Below are positions 49,588-64,000 of a stretch of 64,000 nucleotides of DNA, one piece after another. The notes beneath the pieces are model-generated. The model worked only from the letters and a program-made list of their open reading frames with translations. It made no database searches and had not been told where the DNA came from. Made by a program: the position numbers and the translations under genes. This stretch comes from Loktanella sp. (GTDB lineage Bacteria; Pseudomonadota; Alphaproteobacteria; Rhodobacterales; Rhodobacteraceae): the NCBI GenBank assembly GCA_017390475.1, contig JAFPBO010000030.1, positions 100,969-164,968 of the forward strand. The letters are read 5' to 3'. Each line of letters opens with the position of its first letter. Positions within the stretch are counted from its first letter, which is position 1.

Positions 49588-51019
49588 GGTGTTTTGACAG
49601 GCGCGAGGGCTGCGAGGATTTCTTGTCCTTGTAAGGGTTCTTGTCGCCCTGATCGCGCAGATAAAGCCGGATCGGTGTCCCCGGCATATCAAAATCAACC
49701 CGCAACCCATTGACCAGATAGCGTTTATAGCTTTCTGGCATCAGGTCGGGATGGGACGTCATCACCACAAATGCGGGCGGACGGGTCTTGACCTGCGTGG
49801 CGTAACGCATCTTGATCCGCTTGCCGCCGGGTGCGGGCGGCGGGTGCTGTTCCAGCATACCGATCAGCCAGCGGTTAAGTTGCGCAGTCGTCACACGCCG
49901 GTTCCAGACGTCATGCGCGCGCATGATCGCCTGTTGCAGCTTATCCAGCCCCTTGCCGGTCTTGGCCGAAACCGTAACCAAAGGCGCGCCGCGCAATTGC
50001 GGCAGCAGACGTTCGAAACTTTCACGGAGTTCGCGCAATTTATCCTGCTTGTCGTCTTCGGTATCCCATTTGTTCACCGCGATGACCACGGCGCGGCCTT
50101 CGCGTTCCGCCAGATCGGCGATGCGCAGATCCTGCTGTTCAAAGGGGATTTCCACGTCGAGCAGCACGACCACGACTTCGGCGAATTTCACCGCGCGCAA
50201 CCCGTCAGAGACCGACAGCTTTTCCAGCTTTTCCTGAATCCGCGCCTTTTTGCGCATCCCTGCGGTGTCGAAAATCCGCATCGGGACACCGTCCCAGACC
50301 TGTTTGACGGAAATCGCGTCGCGGGTGATCCCGGCTTCTGGCCCGGTCAGCAGGCGTTCTTCGCCGATGATCTTGTTGATCAGGGTGGATTTGCCCGCAT
50401 TGGGGCGGCCCACCACGGCGATCTGCAAGGGTTTCGCGATGGTCGGGACGCGCGGGGCGTCTTCGTCATCTTCACCGACGTCGACATCCGTCTCGGGCGC
50501 GTCCAATGCAGCGCGTTCCTCGAAAGCATCGGAAATCGGGCGCAGGACGTCCATCAATTCGCCCATGCCTTCGCCATGTTCGGCGGAAATGCGGATTGGC
50601 TCGCCCAGACCAAGGGCATAAGCCTCCAGAATCGTGGCGTCAGCGGCGCGGCCTTCGCCCTTGTTCGCGGCGAGGATCACATTGGCATTTTTCTTGCGCA
50701 GGATATCGGCAAAGACCTGATCGGCGGGCAAGACCCCTGCCCGCGCGTCGATCATGAACAGGCAAACATCGGCCATTTCCACAGCGCGTTCGGTCAAGCG
50801 GCGCATCCGGCCTTGCAGGCTGTCATCTGTCGCCTCTTCCAGGCCCGCGCTGTCGATCACCGTGAACCGCAGATCGGCCAGCCGCCCTTCGCCTTCGCGC
50901 AGGTCGCGGGTGACGCCGGGCTGATCATCGACCAAGGCCAGCTTTTTTCCAACCAGACGGTTGAACAAGGTGGATTTGCCCACATTCGGGCGGCCCACGA
51001 TGGCGAGGGTAAAGGTCAT
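49577..51019 (-). CDS. der: Ribosome-assembly GTPase Der (EngA)
   Basis: A 480-residue double-G-domain GTPase required for 50S maturation. G-domain 1 has [16 protein letters not shown] (about 8-23), DSAGLEEA and AANKGEG (an NKxx site with G). G-domain 2 has [16 protein letters not shown] (about 205-220), [10 protein letters not shown] and [12 protein letters not shown]-like C-terminal domain ends with a basic tail ([17 protein letters not shown]). It lies downstream of bamB, giving yfgM-bamB-der order. Confidence 0.96.
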
Positions 51020-51067
51020 GATAGGGCTCCAGACGGGTCTAAACCCGTCCGCTACACCATTCGCGCG

Positions 51068-52363
51068 TCAACGGAAAGCGTGCAATTGCCCGGTTTTGCT
51101 GATGACATAGAGCGTCTGACCCGCCACTACCGGGGCAGAAGCCGCGCCGCCGGGCAGATCAAGGGTGCCGATCAGCGCGCCGGACGCCGGGTCAAACTGC
51201 CGGATCAATCCGTCCGACGAGGCCACGATCAAACGCCCCCCGGCCAGGATCGGGCCGAAATGCGCCACGACGCTGCGCTGGCGGCGGGTGTTTTCGCCCA
51301 GGAAATCAGGCAGTTCCGTGCGCCAGACCGGTGCGCCGGTGCTGGCATCAAGCCGGACCAATTCGCTCATGTCATTGACCATAAAGACCGAGCCACCAGC
51401 GGGCCACATCGGGCCAACCGCGCCTTCATCAGCGGTCCAGACCCGGCTACCATCGCGCAGATCAAAGGCGACGCTGCGGCCACCGAAGCTGGCAACATAG
51501 ACACGGTTGCCGTCAATCACCGGCCCGCCTGCAATGTCGCTGATGACGCTGGCTGCGCGCCCGACCCGGTCGCCCGAGACGACGTTGGTCCAGCGGGGCA
51601 AACCACCCTGCGGGTTGGTTGCCAGAATTTCACCCGAGGGAAACGGGATTACGACATTTTCACCACTGACCGCGGCAGAGGCGCTTCCGCCGAAAGTCGT
51701 GACCGAAGGTGTACCGCTTTGCTGCCAGCGGGTCAGGCCGGTTGCCGCATCCAGCGCCCAAGCGGTGCTGTCGCGGGCGATCACATACAAAACATCACCG
51801 TTGAAAGTCGGGGCGGCATTGACCGGAGCATTCAGGTTCTTGTTCCAGATCACTTCGCCAGTGGCGGCGTTCAGCGCGGTGACCTCGCCGAACCCGGTCG
51901 TGACATAGACCCGGCCGCCGCCAAATGACACCGCCCCACCAGAGGCGGCGCGCGGGTTGAACCGCTCTGGCGTCAGATTACGGGACCATAACGCTTGCCC
52001 ATTGGTCGCTGTCGCTGTCACTGTGGCGCGGGCATCGACGGTATAGATTACACCGCCCGCGACAACCGGTTCGCCGGTGATCCGGGCGCGACGGCTGTCA
52101 CCCTCGCCGATATTCGCAACGAACAACGGTTGCAGCGCGGTGCCGAGTGCAGGATGTGCAATCAGATGCGCCGGGCCGCCGTTGCGATGGGTCCAGTCGG
52201 CGTTCACCTGCGCCTGTTGCAGGCCGATCGGGCGCACCTCATTCGAGGTAACCGGGGTGGGGCGCAGATCGAATCTGTCACCCGGCAGAATGACCTGTTC
52301 TTCGCCGCAGGCCGCCAGAACCGACAGAACCACTGCGGCACCGATGAATGATCTCAGTTTCAT
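51068..52363 (-). CDS. bamB: Outer-membrane assembly lipoprotein BamB-like (PQQ-like beta-propeller)
   Basis: A 431-residue lipoprotein. The signal ends in the lipobox LSVLAAC (Cys 19), and the rest is an eight-bladed PQQ-like propeller with repeated blocks such as VNAAPTFNGDVLYVIARD, AWALDAATGLTRW, RVYVASFGGRSVAFDL and GGRLIVASSDGLIRQFD. BamB is a scaffold of the beta-barrel assembly machine on the periplasmic side of the outer membrane. The start at the ATG of MKLRSFIGAAV gives a clean lipoprotein signal. Flanking yfgM and der support the assignment. Confidence 0.9.
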   Translation of the reverse strand: MKLRSFIGAAVVLSVLAACGEEQVILPGDRFDLRPTPVTSNEVRPIGLQQAQVNADWTHRNGGPAHLIAHPALGTALQPLFVANIGEGDSRRARITGEPVVAGGVIYTVDARATVTATATNGQALWSRNLTPERFNPRAASGGAVSFGGGRVYVTTGFGEVTALNAATGEVIWNKNLNAPVNAAPTFNGDVLYVIARDSTAWALDAATGLTRWQQSGTPSVTTFGGSASAAVSGENVVIPFPSGEILATNPQGGLPRWTNVVSGDRVGRAASVISDIAGGPVIDGNRVYVASFGGRSVAFDLRDGSRVWTADEGAVGPMWPAGGSVFMVNDMSELVRLDASTGAPVWRTELPDFLGENTRRQRSVVAHFGPILAGGRLIVASSDGLIRQFDPASGALIGTLDLPGGAASAPVVAGQTLYVISKTGQLHAFR

Positions 52364-52379
52364 GGTCGGTCCTATCCGG

Positions 52380-53039
52380 TTATTGCGTTTGCGTCGCGGT
52401 GGCAGGCTCTTCACCCAAAGCGATCATCAGCGTTTGTGCACGTTCGCGCAAGCCGCGTGTGACGGCGGCATCTTCTTCGATCTGGCGCAGCACGACAATG
52501 GCGCCGGCGGTATCGCCGCTTTCCAGCGTCAGATAGGCAATCTGTTCCAGTGCCAACAGGCGGAACGGTTGGCCGGGTTGGGCCAACGCCTCTAGCGCGG
52601 TCAGTCGCGTGGGCAGATCACCGACCGGTAGCATGGCCGCTTTGATAGCCGCCAGATCGCGGTAGATCGGGGACAGATCAGACCGGCTGGCCAGATCACG
52701 CAGCGTGGCGGCAGCAGCTGCGTAATCTTCCGCCTCTTCCTGCGTGGCTGCGGTCAGCATCGCCGTGATCACCGCCGAATTTCCACTGGCCGACACATCA
52801 GAGATCGCCATCGCGCGGGCTGCGGGGTCGTTTTCGGCCAAAGCGGCAAGCAATGCATCACCCGCAGCCTCTGCTGCGGCACGGTCCTGCGCGCTGCGGT
52901 ATTCGTTCCAGGCGGTGCCGCCGACGATCCCCAGCACGATGACAACCGCGATCCAGCCATAGCGGCGCAAATAGCCAAACAGCTTTTCACGGCGCATTTC
53001 GTCGGTGACTTCATTGATAAAGCTGTCTGAATCGCTCAC
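52380..53039 (-). CDS. YfgM-like tetratricopeptide membrane protein
   Basis: A 219-residue protein with one N-terminal membrane helix (about 23-43, YGWIAVVIVLGIVGGTAW) and periplasmic TPR-like repeats rich in alanine and leucine. The N-terminal SDSDSFINEVTDEMRREKL block is typical of alphaproteobacterial relatives. In E. coli, YfgM joins SecYEG and the chaperone PpiD. The GTG at 53037-53039 is chosen because a GGGGGTCCGG ribosome region precedes it; the ATG four codons earlier is the alternative. It lies directly upstream of bamB. Confidence 0.78.
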   Translation of the reverse strand: MSDSDSFINEVTDEMRREKLFGYLRRYGWIAVVIVLGIVGGTAWNEYRSAQDRAAAEAAGDALLAALAENDPAARAMAISDVSASGNSAVITAMLTAATQEEAEDYAAAAATLRDLASRSDLSPIYRDLAAIKAAMLPVGDLPTRLTALEALAQPGQPFRLLALEQIAYLTLESGDTAGAIVVLRQIEEDAAVTRGLRERAQTLMIALGEEPATATQTQ

Positions 53040-53336
53040 CCGGACCCCCATTTTGTGCCCAAGCGGCACCCTGTTTGCGGCGTTCATATCGTGAAGCGCG
53101 CCCATGGGACAAGAGCCGAGCGCAGATTGCGACCGGGCATGGGTAAATTCATGCTTGTCCAGCGGCCCTGTCCTGACATGATTGTGTCGCACCGTGATCG
53201 GATATCGACCGCAGATTGACTGCGCCGCGCTTAAGGCGGGATCGAATCACCGCTGTCGGCTTTTTGATCGGATCGGGCTGGGCTATCCGCCGTAGCATGT
53301 TAACTATTGCCCAGACAGTCGCGAAAGGATCTGCCT

Positions 53337-54641
53337 ATGACCCATCCGGACCGGCGGCTGACCGCGGCAGAAACCAAGGGTTTGCGCACCGCCAAAGAAC
53401 TTGAGGCGCATGTCGCCTGGCTGGATACATTCACCCCGGCGGCCTTGGGCATTCTGGCGATTGCATCGGGCATCTATACCTATCTGGGCGTGTCATCATT
53501 GCTGGAAGACACCGGCGCGATGAGCTTTTTTGCCGCTGTCGCCTATTCGGTCGCGGTCTCGGTCGGTATTTTCGTGTTCTGGAGCTTCATGCTGCGGCTT
53601 TTACCCGCGATGCGCAGTGCGGCGGGATATACCGGGCTGACGGTGATGATGATCGTTGGATCGATGGCGATCATCGCGATGTCAAGCTGGCTGAACGCGG
53701 CGGCCCTTGCCGGGTCAGCGGCAGTCGAACAGCATCTGGACACCACGGTGCGCGATTATCAGTCATCGCTGGAACAGGCGCACAACATCGCCCTGTCGGC
53801 GCAATCCCTACGGCAGGAAGTGCGCCGCGCCCGCGAAGCGTTCGAGGCTTTGGCCGAGCAGGAACGGTCCGGTGAATTGTCCGGCACTGCCGGCGAAGGC
53901 GCGGTCTATCGTGTCTTGCGGCAGAAAACAGAAGAATTACTAAGCCTTGAAAACCAAATCGGCGAACAGCAACCCCTGATTGAAGCCGCCTATGAACAGG
54001 GAAATGCGACATTGGGCCGGATGCGCAGCCTGACTGTGGCCCCCGGCCCGGTCGAACAAAGGTCAGTCACATTTTCCGAAGAAAGCGTACGGCTGGCGGG
54101 GGTGATTTCCAACCTCAACCAATATTCGGTGGCCCTGCTGGTCGCACGGGCGGCAGCGGATCTGCCCGCCTCGGTCGTGCTGCCGGAACTTGACGGGCGC
54201 ACGGCGACGATCAGGGATGCGCAATCCTCGACCATCGGGTCGGTGCTGGATGCACTGGATCAGCGCAGTCAGTCGCTGGGCCGCGCCGCTGCCGAAGTGC
54301 TTGCGTTGGAGCCACCACAGGAAACCGCCTATAACCCCATTTCCAGCGCCGATGCGGTGATCCGCTATGCTGGGAATTTTGGGCCAAGCTGGGCCGGGGC
54401 GATTGCGATTGACCTTTTGCCGGGCGTGCTGGTCTTCATCCTTGCGATCACACAATCGGCCATCCGCAACGGGCGCGACGGGCTAAGCATCGAAGACACG
54501 CTGACACTGGCCGACCTCAAGGCCGCGATCAGCGCGATGAAGGATGTCGAGGCAACCATGGGCGATGCCGATGCGGAAATACTGCGCCGGCTGCGCGATG
54601 ATGAAAGGCCTGATCCGCCCCGCGATTCAGGACCGACATGA
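53337..54641 (+). CDS. Uncharacterised four-helix membrane protein with periplasmic coiled coil
   Basis: A 434-residue protein with no family I recognise. Three helices near the N-terminus (about 33-53, 63-86, 99-118) are followed by a soluble region of about 230 residues rich in Glu, Ala and Gln with coiled-coil character (about 130-230). A fourth helix (about 352-374) precedes a short cytoplasmic tail with a second helix pair. With the N-terminus inside, the loop faces the periplasm. The AAAGGA ribosome site fixes the start MTHPDRRL. It overlaps the ClpP-like gene by ATGA, so the two products are made together. Confidence 0.8.
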   Translation: MTHPDRRLTAAETKGLRTAKELEAHVAWLDTFTPAALGILAIASGIYTYLGVSSLLEDTGAMSFFAAVAYSVAVSVGIFVFWSFMLRLLPAMRSAAGYTGLTVMMIVGSMAIIAMSSWLNAAALAGSAAVEQHLDTTVRDYQSSLEQAHNIALSAQSLRQEVRRAREAFEALAEQERSGELSGTAGEGAVYRVLRQKTEELLSLENQIGEQQPLIEAAYEQGNATLGRMRSLTVAPGPVEQRSVTFSEESVRLAGVISNLNQYSVALLVARAAADLPASVVLPELDGRTATIRDAQSSTIGSVLDALDQRSQSLGRAAAEVLALEPPQETAYNPISSADAVIRYAGNFGPSWAGAIAIDLLPGVLVFILAITQSAIRNGRDGLSIEDTLTLADLKAAISAMKDVEATMGDADAEILRRLRDDERPDPPRDSGPT

Positions 54642-55432
54642 CCCAGCCACTGACCGACAAGCCCCGCGGGATGAACGTGGGTCGGGGTCTGCGAATGATC
54701 TTTGTCGCGCAGATCGTGATCGCGGGCTTGCTGATCGGCATCGATCTGTCATCGCGCTGGCAGCTTGACGTGACCCGTTCAGACCCTGCGCCAACCGGCC
54801 CGGTTGCCCCCGGTGATCAGGTGCGCCGCTATGATCCGTCGCGTCCAACACCGCAATTTTCCAACCCAGGCGCAAGGCCTAACATCACGATGCCCGCCAA
54901 CCTGCCGCCGCAGTTGGACTTTACGCTGGAGGATGATCCCGACTTTGGCCGGATTCTGATGATGAATGGTGCGATTGATCAGGGCGATGCCGACAGGCTG
55001 GCGACCTATCTCGACACGCTGGACACGATTCCCGCAACGATCAGCGTCAACAGCCCCGGCGGCAATGTGGATGAAGCCCTGATCATCGGTCGGTTGATCC
55101 GCGAAAAAGCGCTGAACACGCTGATCCTGCCCGGCATGGCCTGCCTGTCCGCCTGCCCCTACCTGCTGGCTGGCGGTATCGAACGGCAGGTTTCGCAGAC
55201 AGGGGCGGTGGGGCTGCATCAGCATTATTATGAGACGCCGGGCTATATGCCCGCTTATTTTGCGGTCGAGGATATCCAGCGCAGTCAGGGCGCTGTGATG
55301 CGCTATCTGATCGAGATGGGGATCGACGCGGGCGTCATGGTACATGGGCTGACCACCCCGCCGAATGAAATCTACGTGTTGGTGGACAGCGAATTGCTGG
55401 ACAGCCGATTGGCCACCGAAGTGACAGAATAG
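54638..55432 (+). CDS. Membrane-anchored ClpP/crotonase-fold protease-like protein
   Basis: A 264-residue protein with one N-terminal signal-anchor (about 19-39) and a periplasmic ClpP-like domain (about 95-250). Candidate active-site elements are the oxyanion stretch VNSPGGNVDEA (S139-P-G-G), the nucleophile Ser171 in GMACLSACPYLLAGG, and His194 in VGLHQHYYE. Two cysteines (C169, C173) flank the serine. This is the COG3904-type predicted periplasmic ClpP-like family, which has no established substrate. It overlaps the coiled-coil gene and is followed after 37 bases by a small gene. Confidence 0.8.
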   Translation: MTQPLTDKPRGMNVGRGLRMIFVAQIVIAGLLIGIDLSSRWQLDVTRSDPAPTGPVAPGDQVRRYDPSRPTPQFSNPGARPNITMPANLPPQLDFTLEDDPDFGRILMMNGAIDQGDADRLATYLDTLDTIPATISVNSPGGNVDEALIIGRLIREKALNTLILPGMACLSACPYLLAGGIERQVSQTGAVGLHQHYYETPGYMPAYFAVEDIQRSQGAVMRYLIEMGIDAGVMVHGLTTPPNEIYVLVDSELLDSRLATEVTE

Positions 55433-55469
55433 CGGTGCAGTTCCGTGCCTATCCTGTTAGATCTGGCCC

Positions 55470-55856
55470 ATGCTCAGATTTTTCAACATGTTTGGCCGCT
55501 CTTCCGCATTGATTGCCCTTGATGAGGCGTTGCGCGCCACCGGCTTGCATCCGCTGTTGATCCCGGAACCGGTCAAGCTGACAATCCTGCAATTGCACCG
55601 GAAATATGGCACGGCACCGGATCCCGAGGCGGGTCTGGCGGCAGCGGCACAGCTGCTGGCCTATTGTGTGCTGGAACCCGCGCAATTCGTGATGGTCAAT
55701 GGTGACACCGCCGCAGAGGAAACAGAGGCACGGGTCGCGGCAGCCATGACGACCGGCGGTTCGCTGGATGCAAAGCTGATCCTGCTGGCATTTCATTCCG
55801 GCGTGATCTCGGAGGCGATGGCGGATCGGTTCGATATGGAGCAGGATGGTGGGTGA
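55470..55856 (+). CDS. Conserved hypothetical small protein
   Basis: A 128-residue soluble, mostly helical and acidic protein (MLRFFNMFGRSSALIALDEA at the start). No domain is recognised. It follows the ClpP-like gene on the same strand and may be the third member of that operon. Its last ten bases lie inside the oppositely oriented tRNA-Val gene, the TGA stop being formed by the tRNA acceptor sequence. Confidence 0.65.
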   Translation: MLRFFNMFGRSSALIALDEALRATGLHPLLIPEPVKLTILQLHRKYGTAPDPEAGLAAAAQLLAYCVLEPAQFVMVNGDTAAEETEARVAAAMTTGGSLDAKLILLAFHSGVISEAMADRFDMEQDGG

Positions 55857-55922
55857 TGAGAGGCTCGAACTCCCGACATCTTCCGTGTAAAGGAAGCGCT
55901 CTACCAACTGAGCTAATCACCC
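55847..55922 (-). tRNA. tRNA-Val(TAC)
   Basis: A 76-nt cloverleaf. Acceptor GGGTGAT pairs with ATCACCC-type 3' strand, discriminator A and CCA encoded. D-arm GCTCAGTTGGTAGAGC. The anticodon stem CTTCC/GGAAG carries loop TTTACAC with anticodon TAC. T-loop TTCGAGC. The 3' end overlaps the end of the upstream hypothetical gene. Confidence 0.95.
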
Positions 55923-56028
55923 GTGCGCGTGGCTTTAGGCTATTGTGCCGCCCGGTGCAAGAGGCAGCGTCACCGGGAACCAGCCCCTGTCCTTTGTCAA
56001 GAAACCGGGGGCCAGCCCCCGGACCCCC

Positions 56029-56054
56029 GGGATATTTATGCTCGGAAGATGTGA
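56029..56054 (+). repeat. Short intergenic repeat, copy B
   Basis: The 26-base core is identical to 48799-48824. Here it is preceded by a GGGGGCCAGCCCCCGG palindrome instead of the CCTCCGGCGGG box. It lies just before the 3' end of the convergent phosphatase gene. Confidence 0.75.
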
Positions 56055-56063
56055 CGTCTGGCT

Positions 56064-56648
56064 TTATTCCAGCAGGACCTGCTGGCCGTCTTTGAGGTGG
56101 TAGACACAGCCCTGCCCACCATGCGACGTGACTTCGGCAGTCGCAGCCTCGCCCACGACGATACGGCGCAGCACCCGGCTGGTGATGCTGTGGGTGACTA
56201 GAACGGCGGGGCCGGTCAGATCATCCAGAAAAGCGCGGGCGCGGATTTCGAGCCGCGCGAAACCTTCGCCATTCGGGGCCATATCATATTGCTGCGTATA
56301 AGGGTCAGGACCATCGGGCAAAGGCAGCGTATCGCGCAACAGGCCCGACCAATCACCGACCCTGATTTCGCGCAGGCGGTCATCGGTGTGGATATCCTGC
56401 GCGATCCTGGCAAGGGCAATGGCTGCGGTCTGGATCGCCCTTGCCTGCGGGCTGGACCAGAACCGGAACCCGGTCAGGTCACAGGTGGAAAGGATTGCGG
56501 CCTGCCTTGCGGCATCCGCCTCGCCCTTGGGCGTCAGGGGCGAGTTCAGCGCGCCCTGCATCCGATGTTCGGCGTTCCATTCGGTTTCGCCGTGGCGCAG
56601 GATGTAAAGCTCTGGAAACGGCATCGGGGCTCCGGTGTCTTGTGACAT
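56064..56648 (-). CDS. Histidine phosphatase (phosphoglycerate mutase-like)
   Basis: A 194-residue histidine-phosphatase superfamily protein. The phospho-histidine motif is LYILRHGETEWNAEHRMQG (RHG), with a second histidine in VLVTHSITSRVLRR and the acid in LREIRVGDWSGL. Substrates of these small members vary (phosphosugars, phosphoglycerate, adenosylcobalamin-type phosphates). The start is chosen at MSQDTGAPMPF; the MPF residue eight later is possible. It lies 34 bases downstream of the second cytochrome gene and could be read through from the amine dehydrogenase operon, but is not a known part of such clusters. Confidence 0.85.
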   Translation of the reverse strand: MSQDTGAPMPFPELYILRHGETEWNAEHRMQGALNSPLTPKGEADAARQAAILSTCDLTGFRFWSSPQARAIQTAAIALARIAQDIHTDDRLREIRVGDWSGLLRDTLPLPDGPDPYTQQYDMAPNGEGFARLEIRARAFLDDLTGPAVLVTHSITSRVLRRIVVGEAATAEVTSHGGQGCVYHLKDGQQVLLE

Positions 56649-56682
56649 GCCCCGCCCCGATAGCCGATGCCAGACATGTGGT

Positions 56683-57195
56683 CTAGGGCCAGGGATAATC
56701 AGCGATGCTGACCCCTTCGGCGGCCAGTTCCTGCACCACCAGACGGCGATAGGCGACCACATCCTCGACCGGAATCGCGCGGCGGGCGTTGACCTCTGCC
56801 TCTGTATAGGGCGCGGCGTTTCCGTCCGACCATTGCGACAGGATGAAGTTCATCACATCCGCGATTTCGGCATTGCTGAGGCTGGCCGAGATCACACCCG
56901 GCACATGCATCATATAGGTGCGGCCAATATCGCTTTCTGCGATATGGCCGACAGAATTGGGGAAGGTCGGGACTTCGCCATCCGGGGTGCCCAGACCGGC
57001 CGTACCGTGGCAGCCGGAACAGCGCAGGATGAAATTTGTCTGCGCCGAATAGCTGGGCGGCTCTGTCGGCATCACCGCGCGGGCGACCGGGCGGATGCCA
57101 TTGCCCGACCAACTGCCGCGTTCAGCATGGGCGGGCAAGGCGAGCGTCAGACCAAGGGTGATGGCCAACGGGCGCAGGATCGTGGAACGGGTCAT
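56683..57195 (-). CDS. Monohaem cytochrome c, second of the amine dehydrogenase cluster
   Basis: A 170-residue periplasmic class I-like cytochrome c. The signal peptide ends at about residue 24 (PAHA). The single haem motif is C59-SG-C62-H63, and a methionine in GRTYMMHVPG (about 94-95) is the likely sixth ligand. An extended C-terminus follows, with EVNARRAIPVEDVVAYRRLV. It lies 2 bases after the first cytochrome gene. A role as electron acceptor of the amine dehydrogenase is inferred from position; the A. faecalis aau cluster has one small monohaem cytochrome (orf-2) there. Confidence 0.85.
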   Translation of the reverse strand: MTRSTILRPLAITLGLTLALPAHAERGSWSGNGIRPVARAVMPTEPPSYSAQTNFILRCSGCHGTAGLGTPDGEVPTFPNSVGHIAESDIGRTYMMHVPGVISASLSNAEIADVMNFILSQWSDGNAAPYTEAEVNARRAIPVEDVVAYRRLVVQELAAEGVSIADYPWP

Positions 57196-57197
57196 GA

Positions 57198-57647
57198 TTA
57201 CTCCTCGGATTGGCGCATGGCCAGAAGATCGGCGTGACTGGGCGGATCGGCGCGCAGCGCCGCCAGCGTGTCAGCCGATAGGGTCTGGTCGCTGTCGGCA
57301 AAGCTGGACAGGATATGATCGGCGATCATCGTGATCTCTTCATCGTCCAGATAGGCTTGGTTCGGCATAGACACACCCACAAAGGTCTGCCCCCCATCCG
57401 CCACGATCCGCCCGGCCAGACCCGACACGATCACACCGCCCAGGTAACGGGGCGCGTCATCGCCCATCGCCTGCCAGAATGCGGGTCGGTCGAGTTTGGG
57501 GGCGAAACCGGGGATGCCTTCGCCCGCTGCCCCGTGGCAGGCACCGCAGGCATCGGTGAAGACTGCGGCGGGATCGGCAAATGCCGGGAGGACGTTGAAA
57601 GTCAGGCAGCCCAGAAGGGCTGCCTTTTGCAATATGGGCGAAGTCAT
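57198..57647 (-). CDS. Monohaem cytochrome c, first of the amine dehydrogenase cluster
   Basis: A 149-residue periplasmic cytochrome c with signal peptide (about 1-24, ending PAFA) and one haem motif C34-GA-C37-H38 in TDACGACHGAAGEG. A methionine near FVGVSMPNQAYL is the likely distal ligand. The ATG start overlaps the light-chain stop as TAATG, so translation is coupled to the small subunit. The longer upstream frame reads through mauA sequence and is rejected. The acceptor role is inferred from this tight linkage. Confidence 0.86.
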   Translation of the reverse strand: MTSPILQKAALLGCLTFNVLPAFADPAAVFTDACGACHGAAGEGIPGFAPKLDRPAFWQAMGDDAPRYLGGVIVSGLAGRIVADGGQTFVGVSMPNQAYLDDEEITMIADHILSSFADSDQTLSADTLAALRADPPSHADLLAMRQSEE

Positions 57648-58174
57648 TAAGTGGCCTGCCCCACGACAACGGCGACAGTGCAATAATAACCCTGGGCATC
57701 ACTATTCGCCATGCACCAGTTGATGTCGTTATAAAGCCCCATCCGATAGCCGGGCCGTTCACGCTCGGACCGGAAACAGAAGGTCGCCGTGGTGTTCATC
57801 GCCTTACCGCAGCAATCGTTATAGCTGACCAGATAGTCGCGTTCATCCTCGGGGTTGTGGCAGGTGCCGACCCAGGACACGGCAGAGGCTTCGGACCCGA
57901 CAGGGCAGGATGTCATCGAGCCGCCGGTTTCCTGACACAGGAACCCGTCAAGCGCACAATTGCGCCAGTAAGCGCAGACATCGCCGCCCGCACCTGCCGC
58001 AGCATTTGCGCGCCGGTCAAAAGGCAGGATCGGGGTCATGACAGCAGCACCGACGATGGTACCGCCAAGCCGGGCCAGAAAGCTGCGGCGTCCGTGGCTG
58101 CGGGCCTGTGCCCGGCTGCCGGATTCAGCGGCGCGGTCAAGGCGGCTGAGAAGTGTGTCGATCAGTTTCGTCAT
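57647..58174 (-). CDS. aauA: TTQ amine dehydrogenase small (light) subunit, aromatic-amine type
   Basis: A 175-residue catalytic subunit. A twin-arginine signal (HGRRSFLARLG, about 28-38) is followed by a mature domain from about residue 60. The two tryptophans that form tryptophan tryptophylquinone are W101 (AVSWVGTC) and W153 (NDINWCMAN). The catalytic/biogenesis aspartates are D76 (ALDG) and D120 (YNDCC). RERPGY and NDINWCMAN resemble aromatic amine dehydrogenase more than methylamine dehydrogenase. Ten cysteines remain; the partners of MADH Cys38 and Cys86 are E82 and T131, so one disulfide is missing. Substrate type is inferred. Confidence 0.93.
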   Translation of the reverse strand: MTKLIDTLLSRLDRAAESGSRAQARSHGRRSFLARLGGTIVGAAVMTPILPFDRRANAAAGAGGDVCAYWRNCALDGFLCQETGGSMTSCPVGSEASAVSWVGTCHNPEDERDYLVSYNDCCGKAMNTTATFCFRSERERPGYRMGLYNDINWCMANSDAQGYYCTVAVVVGQAT

Positions 58175-58188
58175 AGGTTTTCTCCGGT

Positions 58189-58800
58189 TCAGATGGGCTG
58201 GGGAAGAGGTTGCTGCGCCTGCACAAGCGCCTGAATCGACGGCATGCGCATTTCAGCAGCGGTAAAGAGGCTTTCAAGCTGTTCGCGGTTGTTCACCAGG
58301 CCTTTGGCCCGGATATTGCCGGTCTCATCGATCAGCACCGCAAACGGCAGTTTGGCAACTTTGAACGTCAGGCCAAGGTCGGGCGACAGCACATAAGGAA
58401 AATCCGCCAGACCTTCATTCGCGATCAGATCGCGGTGTTTGGCGGCTTTGCCGTCAGAGGCCAGCACGATGTCGAGCCAGTCTTTTTCCGACCCTTTCAT
58501 CGACCGCAATGCAGGCAGCAACGCCTTGCAGATCGGACAGGATGTGGACAGGAAAAAGAACATCTGGCTGCGCCCGGGGGCGGTTTTTCCCAGAATGATC
58601 TCTGCCCCGTTCAGATTGGGCAGGGTCAGGTTGGGCACCTGCGTGCCCATATCGGGGCCTGCATCCGAAATCATCGCACCGACGGGGGTGACCCGTTCAA
58701 ACAGCACGCCGATCTGGCGCGACAGGGCCAGCGTGACCGCGATCTGCACCAGCATCACGATCCAGAGCGCAATGACCAGAAACAATAGAAGCGTCGTCAT
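58189..58800 (-). CDS. mauD: Amine dehydrogenase maturation thiol-disulfide protein MauD
   Basis: A 203-residue membrane-anchored thioredoxin-like protein. One N-terminal helix (about 5-25) precedes a periplasmic domain with the redox motif FFLSTSCPICKALLP. MauD/AauD proteins are needed to form the many disulfides of the light chain, and mutants lack the small subunit. It starts 2 bases after mauE and ends 14 bases before the light-chain gene. Confidence 0.92.
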   Translation of the reverse strand: MTTLLLFLVIALWIVMLVQIAVTLALSRQIGVLFERVTPVGAMISDAGPDMGTQVPNLTLPNLNGAEIILGKTAPGRSQMFFFLSTSCPICKALLPALRSMKGSEKDWLDIVLASDGKAAKHRDLIANEGLADFPYVLSPDLGLTFKVAKLPFAVLIDETGNIRAKGLVNNREQLESLFTAAEMRMPSIQALVQAQQPLPQPI

Positions 58801-58802
58801 AT

Positions 58803-59360
58803 TCAGCCTTTCTTTGCATTTTGTGCCGCGGCCCGGCGCATCTGGCCACGGTTGGCATCAAGGGTTTCCAGCACGATGATCGCAAACCACAGCGTCAGCG
58901 CGACCAGTACCGCAGCCCCAGCCTGCACCGGGACCACCTGGCCGGATGGGACAATCGCCACGCCTAACGCGATCAGCGTCAACACGGCATTGCGCCCCAG
59001 GGTCACAGCGGAAATGGTCTGTGGCGGGCCGCCGCAGCCGCATTGGATACTGGTCTTGCCCGCCCGCAATGCCGCGAACATGGCCAGCCCGTATCCGGCA
59101 AACAGCACCCCCGCCACCAGACCGCCAAAGGGGCGGGTCACCGGCAAAAGCAGCAGCAGGATCGCCACTGCCTCTGCCCCGGCGAGGCCGCGGACGGCGG
59201 GTGCGGTCCAGCTTTCGGGGATGAGGTCGTAGTCGCGGGCAAAGCCCACGACCTCCCAGAAGGCGGTTGTCTTGTGCCAGAAGGCCTGCAGCAGGATCAC
59301 CACGACCAGCGCCGTGCCCGCCAGCCCGAACAGGCCTGTGACATCAGCAAACAGGGTCAT
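58803..59360 (-). CDS. mauE: Amine dehydrogenase maturation membrane protein MauE
   Basis: A 185-residue four-helix membrane protein of the MauE/DoxX-like type. A cysteine pair in the motif IQCGCGG (about 106-112) resembles the redox cysteines thought to pass electrons to or from MauD. MauE/AauE is required for assembly of the light chain in the periplasm. The start overlaps the large-subunit stop by ATGA. Confidence 0.92.
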   Translation of the reverse strand: MTLFADVTGLFGLAGTALVVVILLQAFWHKTTAFWEVVGFARDYDLIPESWTAPAVRGLAGAEAVAILLLLLPVTRPFGGLVAGVLFAGYGLAMFAALRAGKTSIQCGCGGPPQTISAVTLGRNAVLTLIALGVAIVPSGQVVPVQAGAAVLVALTLWFAIIVLETLDANRGQMRRAAAQNAKKG

Positions 59361-60499
59361 TCTGCCGTCGCCATCATGGAAATGGACCCGATGCCGTCAA
59401 AACTGTCGACCAGTCGCGCCGCCGAACGTGCAGCCGGATCAATGTCATACACATAGATCGCATTGCCACCTGCACCGTACAGCCGTGGGGTTTCTGTCTG
59501 CGCCATCAGCAGTGAATTTTCCCCGTTTGAATTGGACCGATAGAGCAATTCCCTGGCTGCGAAATCATAAGCCCAGATTTCCGTCGAATCGTCCTTGTGC
59601 GATCCGTCATAGGCATCGCCATGCATCAGCACGAACAAAACGCCGGTGCCTTCGTGATAGGTGATCAGCTCTGACCCGGTGGGTGCGAAATTACCGTCGA
59701 TCCCGTCGGTCATGGCAATCGTTTCGGTCAGCACCGGCACATCGCCGCTGTCATCCACGACGAACAGATTGCCTTCGTAGGAGGCGAAGACCATCATCTC
59801 GCCGACCCGCGCGCCATTGGTGAACAGGGCATCGCCGTCGGGGTCAAAGATCACTTCGGATTTCGCCGGGTCACCAAAGCTGCCATCGGCGTCAAAGGTA
59901 AAGCTGGCAAAAGTGCCGTCGCCGCAGATCGTGGTGAATTTCGGGCCAGTCACAGCGGGGATGATGATCCAGCAGCCGGGTGTCGGGATTTCGGCAAGGA
60001 CATCGCCTGCTTCCAGATCGACGACGGTAACGGATGTGGCGGGGGTGGCGTTCTGCACCAGCAGATATTTTTCGTCATCGACCAGCGACATCAGGCCGGG
60101 CTGCACTTCGACCATGGCGATTTTAGCTGGGATTTCGATTTCGCGGGTGATGCTGGCGGTTTCGACGTCGAATTCATGCACGATGGATGTACGCGGACCA
60201 TAGGCGATCCGTTCCAGATAATTCGAGGCTGAAAACACCGTTGTGCCAGCCGCGTTCAGCACCATCAGGGCCTGCATGCCGGGGCTGACATTGCCCTTCA
60301 TCGACAGATCATCGGCGCCGACGATGAAAATATTGCTGACGCCGGACCAAGAGGAATCAATCGCAAAAAGGTTCGGGCCCGGAGCAATCGCTTCTTCGAC
60401 CGTCAGGGTCTCGGGCTCGATCGGGGGTGGCACGTCCTGGGCCATGACCTGCGCCGCAAGACCGGAAAGGGTCACGGTCAGCGCTGTTCTAAGAATCAT
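59357..60499 (-). CDS. aauB: TTQ amine dehydrogenase large (heavy) subunit
   Basis: A 380-residue periplasmic seven-bladed propeller subunit that binds the TTQ light chain. The signal peptide ends about residue 20 (AQVMA). Blades contain TSIVHEFDVETASITREIE-like strands, and a likely disulfide joins the Cys of TPGCWIIIPAV to that of TTICGDG, as in the heavy chains of known enzymes. STEIWAYDFAARELLYRS near the end matches the family. AGGAG lies 8 bases before the start. It is first of the B-E-D-A-cyt-cyt operon and divergent from an AraC regulator. Confidence 0.92.
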   Translation of the reverse strand: MILRTALTVTLSGLAAQVMAQDVPPPIEPETLTVEEAIAPGPNLFAIDSSWSGVSNIFIVGADDLSMKGNVSPGMQALMVLNAAGTTVFSASNYLERIAYGPRTSIVHEFDVETASITREIEIPAKIAMVEVQPGLMSLVDDEKYLLVQNATPATSVTVVDLEAGDVLAEIPTPGCWIIIPAVTGPKFTTICGDGTFASFTFDADGSFGDPAKSEVIFDPDGDALFTNGARVGEMMVFASYEGNLFVVDDSGDVPVLTETIAMTDGIDGNFAPTGSELITYHEGTGVLFVLMHGDAYDGSHKDDSTEIWAYDFAARELLYRSNSNGENSLLMAQTETPRLYGAGGNAIYVYDIDPAARSAARLVDSFDGIGSISMMATAE

Positions 60500-60592
60500 C
60501 GTCTGTCTCCTGATTGGTATGAGTGAGGTCAGACTAGGCGGTGCAACAGACGGGCGGCTATCCAGCCGGACCCGCGAAATGCGCTAAAAATT

Positions 60593-60607
60593 TCATCAGT
60601 TTGATGA
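60593..60607. promoter_or_regulatory. Inverted repeat TCATCA-GTT-TGATGA between aauB and the AraC gene
   Basis: A perfect 6-3-6 palindrome 94 bases upstream of the large-subunit start and about 90 from the regulator start. It is followed by AGGGGC-CGTCT-GCCCCCT. It is a candidate operator of the divergent AraC-family protein; no motif comparison was possible. Confidence 0.4.
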
Positions 60608-60695
60608 CAACAGGGGCCGTCTGCCCCCTTGCCAAACTGGACATCTACCGCGGTGCAGTTCCGATATTGGCCATTCAAGACGAAAGGATATGTCG

Positions 60696-61685
60696 ATGGA
60701 TGCGCTTTTAGACCCACAAAACGCGACCGCCACGACCGGACCCGACCAGACCACGATCAGTACCGGCCAGTATCACCAGCATGTGCTGCAAGAGGATGCC
60801 CTGACCGGCTGGCAACAGGAATATCACCTGCTGCAGGGCGGTGCCTTTCACGGCGAGGTCGCGCAGATCGATTTCGGCGATATCGCGATCTTTCGCGAGA
60901 AAACCAATCTGCCGATGATCAACCGTTTTTGCCTGCCGCAGGACAAGGTCTATTTCACGGCAGCCTTGCCGGGCAGTGCCGATGCTTTCAACCATTATGG
61001 CGCGTTTCACGGCGGCGAAACCTATCTGATGCATTTCGCTGAAGAACGCGAAGTGATGATCAGCGGGCCTGTAGACATGATCGGCGTCACCTTCACACCG
61101 CCGCCCGGAATCACCGAAACCCCACGTTACTGGCAACAGGTCGCCGGGCAGACCAGCGATTTTGTATCATGGATCGCGTTGTTGCTGGGCAGCTTCGCGC
61201 GCAACAGCGACACCAAAGACCTGCACCGGATCGCGCCGCTGCTGATAGCCGACCGGCTTAGCTATGTGCTGGACCAGTTGACGGCGGAAGACACCCGGCG
61301 CCACATTGTTGTAAGCGCCCGCCGCGGCGACCCGACCGATTTGGTCCGTGCCAGTCTGGACGCACTGCGACATTTGCCGAAAAGCGATATTTCGGTCGTC
61401 ATGCTGGCAGAAGAAGTCGATCAGCCCCCTGCCACACTACGCAAAGCCTTTCGCGATGCGCTGGATCAGGACCTTGACGCAATGCTGGTTGCCCTGCGGA
61501 TGTCGCATGTGCATCGCATCCTGACCCACGCCCATCCGCGCGATGTCACCGTTTCGGCCGTGGCGGCGGACCACGGGTTTCTGCATTGGGGCCGTTTCGC
61601 GCAACGCTACCGGGCGATGTTCGGCGAACTGCCGGTGGCAACGCTGCGGCGTAGCGACAGTCACAAGCGCGCGGTCGTCGGTTAG
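60696..61685 (+). CDS. AraC-family transcriptional regulator, probable amine dehydrogenase activator
   Basis: A 329-residue regulator. The N-terminal two-thirds is a sensor domain with many aromatic residues, without a recognised fold name. The C-terminal 100 residues carry the double helix-turn-helix (ISVVMLAEEVDQPPATLRKA, then VSAVAADHGFLHWGRFAQRY). The ATG at 60696 is chosen because GAAAGGA lies 7-8 bases upstream; the ATG at 60690 is too close to it. Divergent position makes it the likely activator of the cluster, replacing the LysR-type MauR of Paracoccus. The inducer is unknown. Confidence 0.85.
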   Translation: MDALLDPQNATATTGPDQTTISTGQYHQHVLQEDALTGWQQEYHLLQGGAFHGEVAQIDFGDIAIFREKTNLPMINRFCLPQDKVYFTAALPGSADAFNHYGAFHGGETYLMHFAEEREVMISGPVDMIGVTFTPPPGITETPRYWQQVAGQTSDFVSWIALLLGSFARNSDTKDLHRIAPLLIADRLSYVLDQLTAEDTRRHIVVSARRGDPTDLVRASLDALRHLPKSDISVVMLAEEVDQPPATLRKAFRDALDQDLDAMLVALRMSHVHRILTHAHPRDVTVSAVAADHGFLHWGRFAQRYRAMFGELPVATLRRSDSHKRAVVG

Positions 61686-61770
61686 CAGGCCATCCATATT
61701 TTGCCGTTGACAGCGCCTGTGCCAAGGATCAGCTTGCCGGATTCTAAGATCAGCCGCACAGGATCACGTC

Positions 61771-62433
61771 ATGGCAAAAGAAACCCGAAGCTTCACCGTC
61801 ATCGGTCTGGGGGCTTTCGGCTCTGCGGTGGCGAGCGAGCTGGCGCGCTTTGGCAATCAGGTTCTGGGCGTCGACACCGATGAGAAGCGCGTGACGCAGA
61901 TGTCCAACACATTGGATAACTGCGTGATCCTTGACACCACCGATGAAGTTGCGTTGCGCGAGGCAGGCATCGATCAATATGATGTGGCGCTGATCGCGAT
62001 TGGCCGCGACATTCAGGCCAGTATCCTGACCACGATGAACCTCAAGATGCTGGGGGTCGAGACGATCTGGGTCAAAGCCTCGAACAAGACGCATCACCGG
62101 ATATTGTCGAAACTGGGGGCAGACCGCGTGATCCTGCCGGAACAGGAAATGGGTCGCCATATCGCGCAGATGCTGAACAATCCGGTGGTGCAGGATTATG
62201 TCAGTCTGGGCAATGGCTATAGCGTGGTCAACATCGTCATCCCGGAAAGATTGAAGGGCAAGCCATTGAAATCGCTTGGTATTGGCGAAAGGTTTGATCT
62301 ACGCCTGCTTGGTTTGATGCGCGGCACCGAATTCCGCGCCGGCGATACCGCAGAAATGACCTTGGAACCTGCTGACAAGTTGATCCTTCTGGGAAAACGG
62401 CCCGAACTGCGCCGCTTTGGCGATGCATTGTAA
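61771..62433 (+). CDS. ktrA: Potassium uptake regulatory subunit, KtrA/TrkA type
   Basis: A 220-residue cytoplasmic RCK protein. The N-terminal Rossmann domain has VIGLGAFGSAVASELARFG (about 9-27) for nucleotide binding, and the C-terminal RCK_C domain ends in LILLGKRPELRRFG. The size (about 220) is that of KtrA rather than the duplicated 460-residue TrkA. It gates the KtrB channel in response to ATP/ADP. The potassium channel gene follows after 18 bases. Confidence 0.9.
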   Translation: MAKETRSFTVIGLGAFGSAVASELARFGNQVLGVDTDEKRVTQMSNTLDNCVILDTTDEVALREAGIDQYDVALIAIGRDIQASILTTMNLKMLGVETIWVKASNKTHHRILSKLGADRVILPEQEMGRHIAQMLNNPVVQDYVSLGNGYSVVNIVIPERLKGKPLKSLGIGERFDLRLLGLMRGTEFRAGDTAEMTLEPADKLILLGKRPELRRFGDAL

Positions 62434-62451
62434 CAACCTGCAGGTCTTTGC

Positions 62452-63795
62452 ATGACATTTTCTTCTGTGCGGTTTCTCAAGATTTTTGGGCGACTGCCGC
62501 CGCCGCTGATCCTGGCGGCACTTTATGCCGGTTTGATCGTCATAGGCGCCGTGCTGCTGATGCTGCCTGTCGCGCGAACTGTGCCGATTGCGTGGTCCGA
62601 TGCGATCTTTACCTCCGCCTCGGCCGTCACCGTGACCGGGCTTGTCGTGATAGACACCGGCGCCGATCTGACGGTTTTCGGGCAAGCTGTCGTAGCCTTT
62701 CTGATCCAGATGGGCGGGCTGGGGCTGATGACCTTCGCCGTGCTGATCCTTGGCGCGCTGGGAATGCAGGTCGGCATCACTGGCAAGACGTTCCTGCGCG
62801 ACGATCTGAACCAAAGCTCGGTCAGTCAATTGTCACAGCTGGTGCTGACGATCCTCAAAGTCGTGGTGATCTGCGAAGTCGTCGGTGCCGCCCTGCTCGC
62901 CTTTGTCTTTGTGCCCGAATATGGAATTGCCCAAGGGCTATGGGAGGCTGTTTTTCATTCCATCTCTGCCTTCAACAATGCGGGGTTTTCAACCTTTCCC
63001 AATGGGCTGGTCCCCTATGCAACCGATGTCATCGTGAACATCGTGATCCCTGCCCTCTTCATCATTGGTGGCATCGGCTATGTGGTGCTGCATGATGTCT
63101 TTACGCGCAAAGGCTGGCGGGCCTGGTCGCTGCATAGCAAGATCATGCTGGTCGGCACCGCGGTGTTGATCCCGTGGTCAGTGGCGACATTCGCTGTGCT
63201 GGAATGGACCAATCCCGGCACCTTGGGGCAATTCGACAGCGCCGCAGCGAAACTGACCGTCAGCTGGTTTCAGGGCGTGACCACCCGTACCGCAGGTTTC
63301 AACACGACCGATATTGGGGCTTTGCATGACAGCACATCAATGATGTTCATTTCGCTGATGCTGATCGGCGGCGGGCCAGCCTCGACCGCTGGCGGGATCA
63401 AGGTCACGACCTTTGTGGTGATGATCATCGCAACGGTGGCCTTTTTCCGGCGGCAGAAACAATTGCATGCTTTCGGGCGCAGTATCGGGCTGGAGCAGGT
63501 GCTGAAAGTCATGGCGCTGACCGCGATCAGCCTTGTGCTGGTGTTTGTCGGCGTGTTCCTGCTGACCGCTTCGCATGACGGCCATTTCCTTGACATCAGT
63601 TTCGAGGTGGCCAGCGCCTTTGGCACCGTCGGCCTGTCGCGCGGCTATACGGCCGAGCTGAACGATTTCGGCCGCTCCGTGATTGTCGCCATCATGTTTC
63701 TGGGCCGGGTCGGGCCGCTGACGTTGGGTTTTTTCCTGGCCACCCGCGCGGTACCACGGGTGCGGTATCCGGAAGGTAAACTATATCTGGGATAG
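62452..63795 (+). CDS. ktrB: Potassium uptake channel subunit, KtrB/TrkH type
   Basis: A 447-residue membrane protein of four repeated M1-P-M2 units. The selectivity-filter glycines are in SASAVTVTGLVVID, SAFNNAGFSTFP, TTRTAGFNTTDI and ASAFGTVGLSRGY. The length matches KtrB. It forms a dimeric potassium channel with an octameric KtrA ring. Its stop is followed after one base by a tRNA 3' fragment, so the gene end lies at the probable island boundary. Confidence 0.92.
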   Translation: MTFSSVRFLKIFGRLPPPLILAALYAGLIVIGAVLLMLPVARTVPIAWSDAIFTSASAVTVTGLVVIDTGADLTVFGQAVVAFLIQMGGLGLMTFAVLILGALGMQVGITGKTFLRDDLNQSSVSQLSQLVLTILKVVVICEVVGAALLAFVFVPEYGIAQGLWEAVFHSISAFNNAGFSTFPNGLVPYATDVIVNIVIPALFIIGGIGYVVLHDVFTRKGWRAWSLHSKIMLVGTAVLIPWSVATFAVLEWTNPGTLGQFDSAAAKLTVSWFQGVTTRTAGFNTTDIGALHDSTSMMFISLMLIGGGPASTAGGIKVTTFVVMIIATVAFFRRQKQLHAFGRSIGLEQVLKVMALTAISLVLVFVGVFLLTASHDGHFLDISFEVASAFGTVGLSRGYTAELNDFGRSVIVAIMFLGRVGPLTLGFFLATRAVPRVRYPEGKLYLG

Positions 63796-63796
63796 A

Positions 63797-63838
63797 TGGT
63801 GGGTGATAAGGGATTTGAACCCCTGACATCTTCGATGT
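63797..63838 (-). mobile_element. tRNA 3'-half fragment, probable att site at a genomic island boundary
   Basis: On the minus strand this reads from about the anticodon loop (ACAT) through CGAAG, the variable region ATGTC, T-arm AGGGGTTCAAATCCCTT, acceptor strand ATCACCC, A and CCA. It resembles the tRNA-Val at 55847 but is not identical. No matching acceptor 5' strand, D-arm or anticodon stem exists upstream, so the tRNA is broken. Such 3' halves are left at the distal end of islands that integrate into tRNA genes. The island would lie to the right. Confidence 0.6.
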
Positions 63839-63920
63839 TAGATTTCCGACCCAACATATGCTAACCCGAATTATTCATGAGGGGTTGGCGAGGGTAGCTT
63901 AAGCGTTTGAAAGGATGTAT

Positions 63921-63943
63921 TTTTTGGTTGTCTCGACCAAAAA
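63921..63943. promoter_or_regulatory. TTTTTGGT-N7-ACCAAAAA inverted repeat
   Basis: A perfect 8-bp inverted repeat in AT-rich DNA just inside the supposed island edge, 30 bases before a possible start codon. It may be an operator or a recombinase arm site; no family can be named. Confidence 0.4.
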
Positions 63944-63972
63944 TGCAAATTCCAAAGCCCGGCACCCTCACC

Positions 63973-64000
63973 ATGAAACACTCTATCTCCACAGCACCAG
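63973..64000 (+). CDS. Possible start of a reading frame at the right edge
   Basis: ATG at 63973 opens a frame (MKHSISTAP) that runs to the window edge. There is no clear ribosome site. If the boundary at about 63838 is an island end, this could be an integrase or other island gene, but nine residues cannot show it. Confidence 0.2.

Follow-up and report, generated by a model that had tools for sequence, protein, structure and literature searches.

Probable stepwise loss of two neighbouring disulfides in a clade of AADH-type amine dehydrogenase light chains

The light (small) chain of a TTQ-type amine dehydrogenase is encoded on the minus strand (57647..58174) of the window analysed here, a stretch of 64,000 nucleotides from Loktanella sp.; it possesses ten cysteines and most likely has lost two disulfides. 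Comparison with its relatives makes it highly probable that this is a chain of the aromatic amine dehydrogenase (AADH) type whose clade shed two neighbouring disulfides, in order, from an ancestor with 14 cysteines. The clade would first have lost the pair 38/86 (numbered after the Paracoccus light chain), and a large part of it, including the window chain, would then have lost 39/83, leaving five predicted disulfides. The original prediction that exactly one disulfide had been lost is true against Paracoccus only, since 39/83 is likewise absent when the chain is compared with the AADH light chain of Alcaligenes faecalis and with 55 other rows of 14 cysteines.

The light chain matches PF02975 (E 4.1e-47; 159.7 bits against a curated cut-off of 25), and its translation runs from ATG to stop as a precursor of 175 residues with zero internal stops. 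The leader (about residues 1-59; 57998..58174; all light-chain features lie on the minus strand) contains RRSFLARLG, which we take to be a Tat-signal-like motif. The ten predicted cysteines are confirmed (residues 67, 73, 80, 90, 105, 121, 122, 133, 154 and 165) and align with Paracoccus positions 23, 29, 36, 46, 61, 77, 78, 88, 109 and 121. E82-T83 (57926..57931) occupy the columns of Cys38-Cys39 in 14-cysteine relatives, N127 (57794..57796) that of Cys83, the partner of Cys39 by co-variation, and T131-F132 (57779..57784) the Cys86 column and position 87, respectively; by alignment both partners of 38-86 are indeed gone, with E82 at Cys38 and T131 at Cys86. Both TTQ tryptophans and both aspartates are kept, again as predicted: W101 (57872..57874) corresponds to TTQ Trp57 and W153 (57716..57718) to TTQ Trp108, each Trp in 123 of 123 aligned light chains, while D76 (57947..57949) corresponds to Asp32 (Asp in 108/123) and D120 (57815..57817) to Asp76 (Asp in 123/123). 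Elsewhere in the sample Asp32 is replaced by Ser in 12 of 123 chains (loci L041, L042, L058, L081, L087, L090, L129-L132, L134 and L135), by His in two (L110, L111) and by Gly in one (L139). AlphaFold2, run on 24 sequences from the window and the loci, gave a poor model (mean pLDDT 61.6, pTM 0.50).

The gene is part of a cluster on the same strand, in which a heavy chain (59357..60499; PF06433, E 2.8e-30) is followed by a MauE-type membrane protein (58803..59360; PF07291, E 5.7e-19), a MauD-type thiol-disulfide protein with a CPIC motif (58189..58800; TIGR02661, 171.2 bits, below the cut-off of 188.6), the light chain and two monohaem cytochromes c with one CxxCH each, the first overlapping the end of the light-chain gene (57198..57683; PF00034, E 2.6e-9) and the second at 56683..57195 (PF00034, E 7e-5). 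A divergent AraC-type protein on the plus strand (60690..61685; HTH_18, E 1.3e-10) is, by its position, a possible regulator of the cluster. The nearest solved chain to the window light chain is that of an AADH (2agl_D, E 9.4e-39, 136.4 bits; best methylamine dehydrogenase, MADH, 119.3 bits), and the same is true of the heavy chain (2h3x_A, E 1e-41, 146.6 bits; best MADH E 1.6e-25, 93.4 bits). Similarly, the chains remain below the equivalog cut-offs of TIGR02659, methylamine dehydrogenase (amicyanin) light chain (136.4 against 196.85 bits), and TIGR02658, methylamine dehydrogenase (amicyanin) heavy chain (108.9 against 454.45 bits), and phmmer searches with Paracoccus queries (E 1e-5) gave zero matches to MauG, MauF, MauJ and amicyanin in window positions 50001-64000. 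Since both chains are nearer to AADH, the MADH equivalog cut-offs are missed and these four proteins are unmatched, the cluster is, by sequence, AADH-like (aauBEDA-like) rather than methylamine dehydrogenase. Chistoserdov is said to have described in 2001 an aau cluster with the order heavy-E-D-light, then cytochrome c, without mauG. The window gene order fits this type, with heavy-E-D-light, then cytochrome c, and no MauG match, and the annotation of LT969519 shows the same order (aauB-mauE-mauD-aauA-cycA).

To place the window chain among its relatives, light chains were collected from a scan across genome contigs (44 loci), from PF02975 searches of 398, 295, 341 and 347 genomes, which gave matches in 13, 6, 40 and 25 of them (overlapping sets, with a few matches below cut-off), and from 31 plasmid records, 15 of which were taken in. 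From 148 rows we removed six partial or repeat rows (L140, L043 in two pieces, L044, L141 as partial, and L001, a repeat of the window) and four divergent Thermomicrobium rows (L120), which left 138 rows and 123 distinct sequences; Pden_PDB duplicates L119 in shortened form. Three chains (L187, L188, L189) were added afterwards and stand outside the 123. The sample is uneven, being weighted towards relatives of the window protein and three orders of Proteobacteria. Among the partial rows left out, L141 has both 38/86 and 39/83, the L043 pieces have 39 and 83, and L044 has a loop without cysteine. Two of these are broken genes: in Devosia sp. A8/3-2 (L043, 6001-6526) the light-chain match is split over two frames, and on a Sphaerotilus plasmid (L141, 6001-6270) the light chain is truncated. 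The Thermomicrobium roseum plasmid NC_011961.1 (L120) carries a number of divergent ORFs that are rich in cysteine and resemble light chains, and a protein close by is annotated MauE/DoxX; a heavy-chain match was sought at this locus and none was found.

The MADH light chain is about 130 residues long, and its disulfides in Paracoccus we take to be 23-88, 29-61, 36-121, 38-86, 46-77 and 78-109. A total of six disulfides is given for the MADH light chain in PMC7876137. Across the 123 distinct chains, four pairs are invariant (23/88, 29/61, 46/77 and 78/109 in 123/123), and the others come and go as whole pairs. For 38/86, both cysteines are present in 65 chains and neither in 58, so that the loss seen in the window is common to many relatives; no chain has a half-state (0/123 discordant), in accordance with the matched loss that had been predicted. 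The pair 39/83 is complete in 77, absent from 44 and half present in two (L110, L111), where the partner cysteine is placed one residue later. Finally, 36/121 is complete in 120, jointly absent from three and never halved; these three chains (L133, L136 and L137, from genomes G692, G703 and G928) have A or S with S in its place and keep both 38/86 and 39/83. The agreement does not depend on alignment, as the number of cysteines at 37-39 equals that in 79-107, Cys88 excluded, in 123 of 123 chains; other pairings of the six variable columns, by comparison, gave 24 to 61 discordant rows. The three chains added later conform as well: L187 lacks both 38/86 and 39/83, L188 has 39/83 only and L189 has 38/86 only. 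The 123 rows are clustered by descent and are therefore not independent observations. On the strength of this co-variation, Cys39-Cys83 is a candidate seventh bridge in AADH.

Cysteine totals in the aligned region are 14 in 56 rows, 12 in 29 and 10 in 38. The window chain, which lacks both 38/86 and 39/83, shares its ten-cysteine pattern with 37 other distinct chains in the sample, and with L187 besides. It is thus not special, and recurrence in so many distinct sequences indicates that its state is neither chance nor sequencing error. The idea that the family offers a natural experiment on how many disulfides are needed is supported. The argument that paired loss speaks for selection and not decay can be kept in part: lone half-pairs are unseen, yet an advantage of the loss itself does not follow. 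Disulfide halves are usually lost together, and since joint loss is the common expectation, the surprise is moderate.

Among the loci with a ten-cysteine light chain, 40 of 41 have matches to both MauE and MauD, the exception being L013. An ORF with four CxxCH motifs lies downstream of the ten-cysteine light chain in L003, L014, L022, L123, L184 and L185, and that of L123 is annotated as a cytochrome c3 family protein. Two AADH-type light chains occur together in genome G1288, both with ten cysteines (L187 among them), and G1287 has one ten-cysteine chain and one with 39/83 only (L188). Ten-cysteine clusters are plasmid-borne in L115, L116, L117, L123 and L146 (Pseudomonas, Chimaeribacter, Paracoccus, Haematobacter), and this location in several genera suggests lateral spread of these clusters.

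The history of the pairs was read from a partner-protein tree (heavy chain, MauE and MauD), which excludes the trait itself and comprises 94 loci, 93 of them with a light-chain state. It was rooted on six MADH rows of our choice, with which two further rows grouped. On this tree 38/86 changes once, its absence coinciding with one side (60 rows) of a branch at 100; all 59 scored rows of this clade lack the pair, and the 60th, L043, has no readable state. Of those 59, 40 also lack 39/83, which suggests that in this clade 38/86 was lost before 39/83. Over the whole tree there are three changes of 39/83 and one of 36/121. Independent contrasts number at most three for 39/83 and a single one for 38/86, which does not suffice for a sign test. 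In these contrasts one locus of 93 scored as discordant for 38/86, which we put down to the sequence anchors used, since DCC and WC are also found at 37-39 and 87-88; the alignment-free count above relies on stricter anchors. A light-chain tree built without the trait columns was less resolved and gave two changes for 38/86. In a tree of 36 rows picked by us from the 94, the 18 ten-cysteine rows form one side of a branch with support 77; L036 and L186, apart in the partner tree, come together in this subset tree (support 77), so that 39/83 may have been lost either once or twice within the clade.

Why the fold might tolerate such losses can be read from the position of the bridges. Both missing ones would link the residues directly following Cys36 to the loop between Cys78 and Cys88. 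This segment would still be anchored by 36-121, and the ends of the loop by 78-109 and 23-88; with these anchors remaining, the fold and the TTQ site would keep their core and one loop would be freed. MauD and MauE serve the oxidising periplasm. In such surroundings a lone cysteine would mispair, and half-states would be purged by selection, which may explain why the halves of a pair disappear jointly. We infer from the sequences that the cysteines form the stated bridges and that the enzyme is active.

The freed loop would tend towards an additional residue and a Phe before Cys88. Where 38/86 is present, the spacing from C78 to C88 is mostly 10 (60 of 65 rows); where it is absent, 11 or 12 prevails (50 of 58 rows). 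The window chain has one additional residue in this loop relative to Paracoccus. Likewise, Phe87 is found in 49 of the 58 rows without 38/86, against one of the 56 fourteen-cysteine rows, where position 87 varies widely; it also occurs in two of the three rows without 36/121, which retain 38/86. Lengthening of the loop and Phe87 could be compensation for the lost bridges, an association confounded by common descent. One fixed residue pair standing in for the cysteines at 38/86 was considered as a compensating change and is ruled out by the 20 different letter pairs found there.

These same differences in loop length and Phe87 in the clade without 38/86 might alternatively mean that bridge loss was favoured, the loop being reshaped for a cytochrome c acceptor encoded by the neighbouring gene instead of amicyanin or azurin. 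The distribution of acceptors is partly in keeping with this: the MADH side of the tree has matches to MauG and MauJ in 8/8 loci and to amicyanin in 6/8, while off that side there are zero amicyanin matches and in most loci one, two or three haem ORFs follow downstream. However, AADH-type loci with 14 cysteines (L118, L122, L144, L176, L177 and L178) also have two monohaem ORFs downstream, so the type of acceptor does not track bridge loss, and we regard this explanation as unlikely.

The direction of change also deserves attention, because the numbers of changes are independent of the root and cannot by themselves separate gain from loss. The ten-cysteine form might accordingly be ancestral, with 39/83 and 38/86 gained stepwise. 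When the MADH rows serve as root, fourteen-cysteine rows occur on both sides (3/8 on the MADH side and 23/85 scored on the AADH side), so that both pairs would have to have arisen in parallel, in identical columns, and the ten-cysteine forms fall inside the AADH side; we therefore consider stepwise gain quite unlikely. The occurrence of 14 cysteines on both sides instead makes 14 cysteines and seven disulfides the most likely state of the common ancestor of the light chains, as far as sequence can indicate, and ordered loss remains the preferred reading.

With this polarity, the choice of Paracoccus MADH as reference for the original prediction proves unfortunate: the window is AADH-like, and the 12-cysteine MADH of Paracoccus most likely is itself a derived form, which lost 39/83 on its own (five Paracoccus-type MADH rows without the pair, at 99). 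Against that one sequence precisely 38-86 is missing, as if a six-disulfide light chain of the Paracoccus kind had lost this bridge in an individual event in the window lineage. Such an event is very unlikely, given that 39/83, a pair absent from Paracoccus, belongs to a set of 14 cysteines in 56 of 123 light chains, that the window lies inside the AADH-type clade of 60 loci in which all 59 scored lack 38/86, and that its ten-cysteine state is common to 37 other rows. Decay to a non-functional copy is barely credible: the window offers nothing in its favour and broken relatives are found only elsewhere (L043, L141), whereas reading frame and cluster are intact, the TTQ Trp and Asp residues, the four core pairs and 36/121 are retained, and the ten-cysteine pattern recurs in 38 distinct rows.

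Besides disulfides, the MauG-family proteins associated with TTQ vary among the holders of these clusters. Near the gene, MauG matches were found in 8/8 tree loci on the MADH side and in 1/86 others (L161), some loci ending at contig ends; in the genome of this exception, G815 (L090 and L161; light chain substituted at Asp32), the MauG-like neighbour matches with phmmer E 3.7e-107. At the genome level we searched 29 genomes or records, six of them MADH holders; the other 23 come down to 21 distinct AADH-type genomes once G435 and G1286 are counted as the single genome that they are and G1289, which carries a MADH light chain as well, is set aside. The MauG model TIGR03791 had no match in 12 of the 29, including the window genome (G000, 99.99% complete). 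The wider CCP_MauG model PF03150 gave zero matches in the window genome and none in 10 of the 11 other TIGR03791-negative genomes, G823 having one short match. An annotated MauG on the Paracoccus denitrificans plasmid reaches only 94.6 bits against the TIGR03791 cut-off of 443.85; as a known MauG can thus fall far below the cut-off, weaker matches are not dismissible and only match-free genomes were counted. By both models, MauG-family proteins are without a match in 11 of the 21 AADH-type genomes, i.e. the window genome and 10 of the 20 others (G000, G1209, G834, G692, G1285, G1288, G1290, G1292, G1293, G1295 and G1296), a count backed by a completeness figure for the window genome and by none for genomes reached through loci; the remaining 10 have at least a weak match. 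The light chains of the match-free genomes retain both TTQ tryptophans. A Paracoccus MauG query likewise found no match in the window genome, in a search without positive control.

Taken together, these observations allow a broader proposal, which we put forward tentatively and at somewhat below even confidence: a clade stripped to five disulfides in order (14, 12 and 10 cysteines) would have replaced a bridge by a longer loop and a favoured Phe, and would make its TTQ partly in cells free of MauG-family proteins, so that both the full disulfide set and the MauG step may be dispensable.

The bridges of MADH and AADH light chains sort into a core (23/88, 29/61, 46/77, 78/109), meaning those not lost in this sample of 123 sequences, and pairs that vary (38/86, 39/83, 36/121). 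The ordered series of 14, 12 and 10 cysteines provides ready natural variants for asking what disulfides do, and gains or losses of whole pairs hint at the links the fold can do without. The candidate seventh bridge of AADH can be checked in existing structures, and genomes free of MauG-family matches are a place to seek another route to TTQ. Among the matches listed in a literature search, judged by title and abstract start and with subscription journals mostly outside its coverage, no paper dealt with disulfide loss in TTQ light chains.

Clusters of this kind have been noted in Rhodobacteraceae before. According to PMC7574528, 'mau' clusters occur in this family, e.g. in Celeribacter halophilus and Donghicola sp. 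KarMa, and were labelled methylamine dehydrogenase by bioinformatics. In our sample C. halophilus is represented by CGMCC 1.8891 (L025), which may differ from the strain treated there; its light chain has ten cysteines, falls in the clade of the window and is 66% identical over residues 1-174. The light chain MauA of Paracoccus denitrificans (PDB 2bbk among others) shares the family and the TTQ residues with the window chain (46/106 aligned residues identical) but has 12 cysteines, with 38/86 and without 39/83, and its cluster has MauF, MauJ, MauG and amicyanin, none of which was matched near the window cluster. Closest in enzyme type is the AADH (aralkylamine dehydrogenase) light chain AauA of A. 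faecalis (PDB 2agl among others), which has PF02975, the TTQ Trp pair and both Asp in common with the window chain and is identical to it at 60 of 106 aligned residues, and which differs in possessing 14 cysteines, including 38/86 and 39/83, where the window chain has ten.
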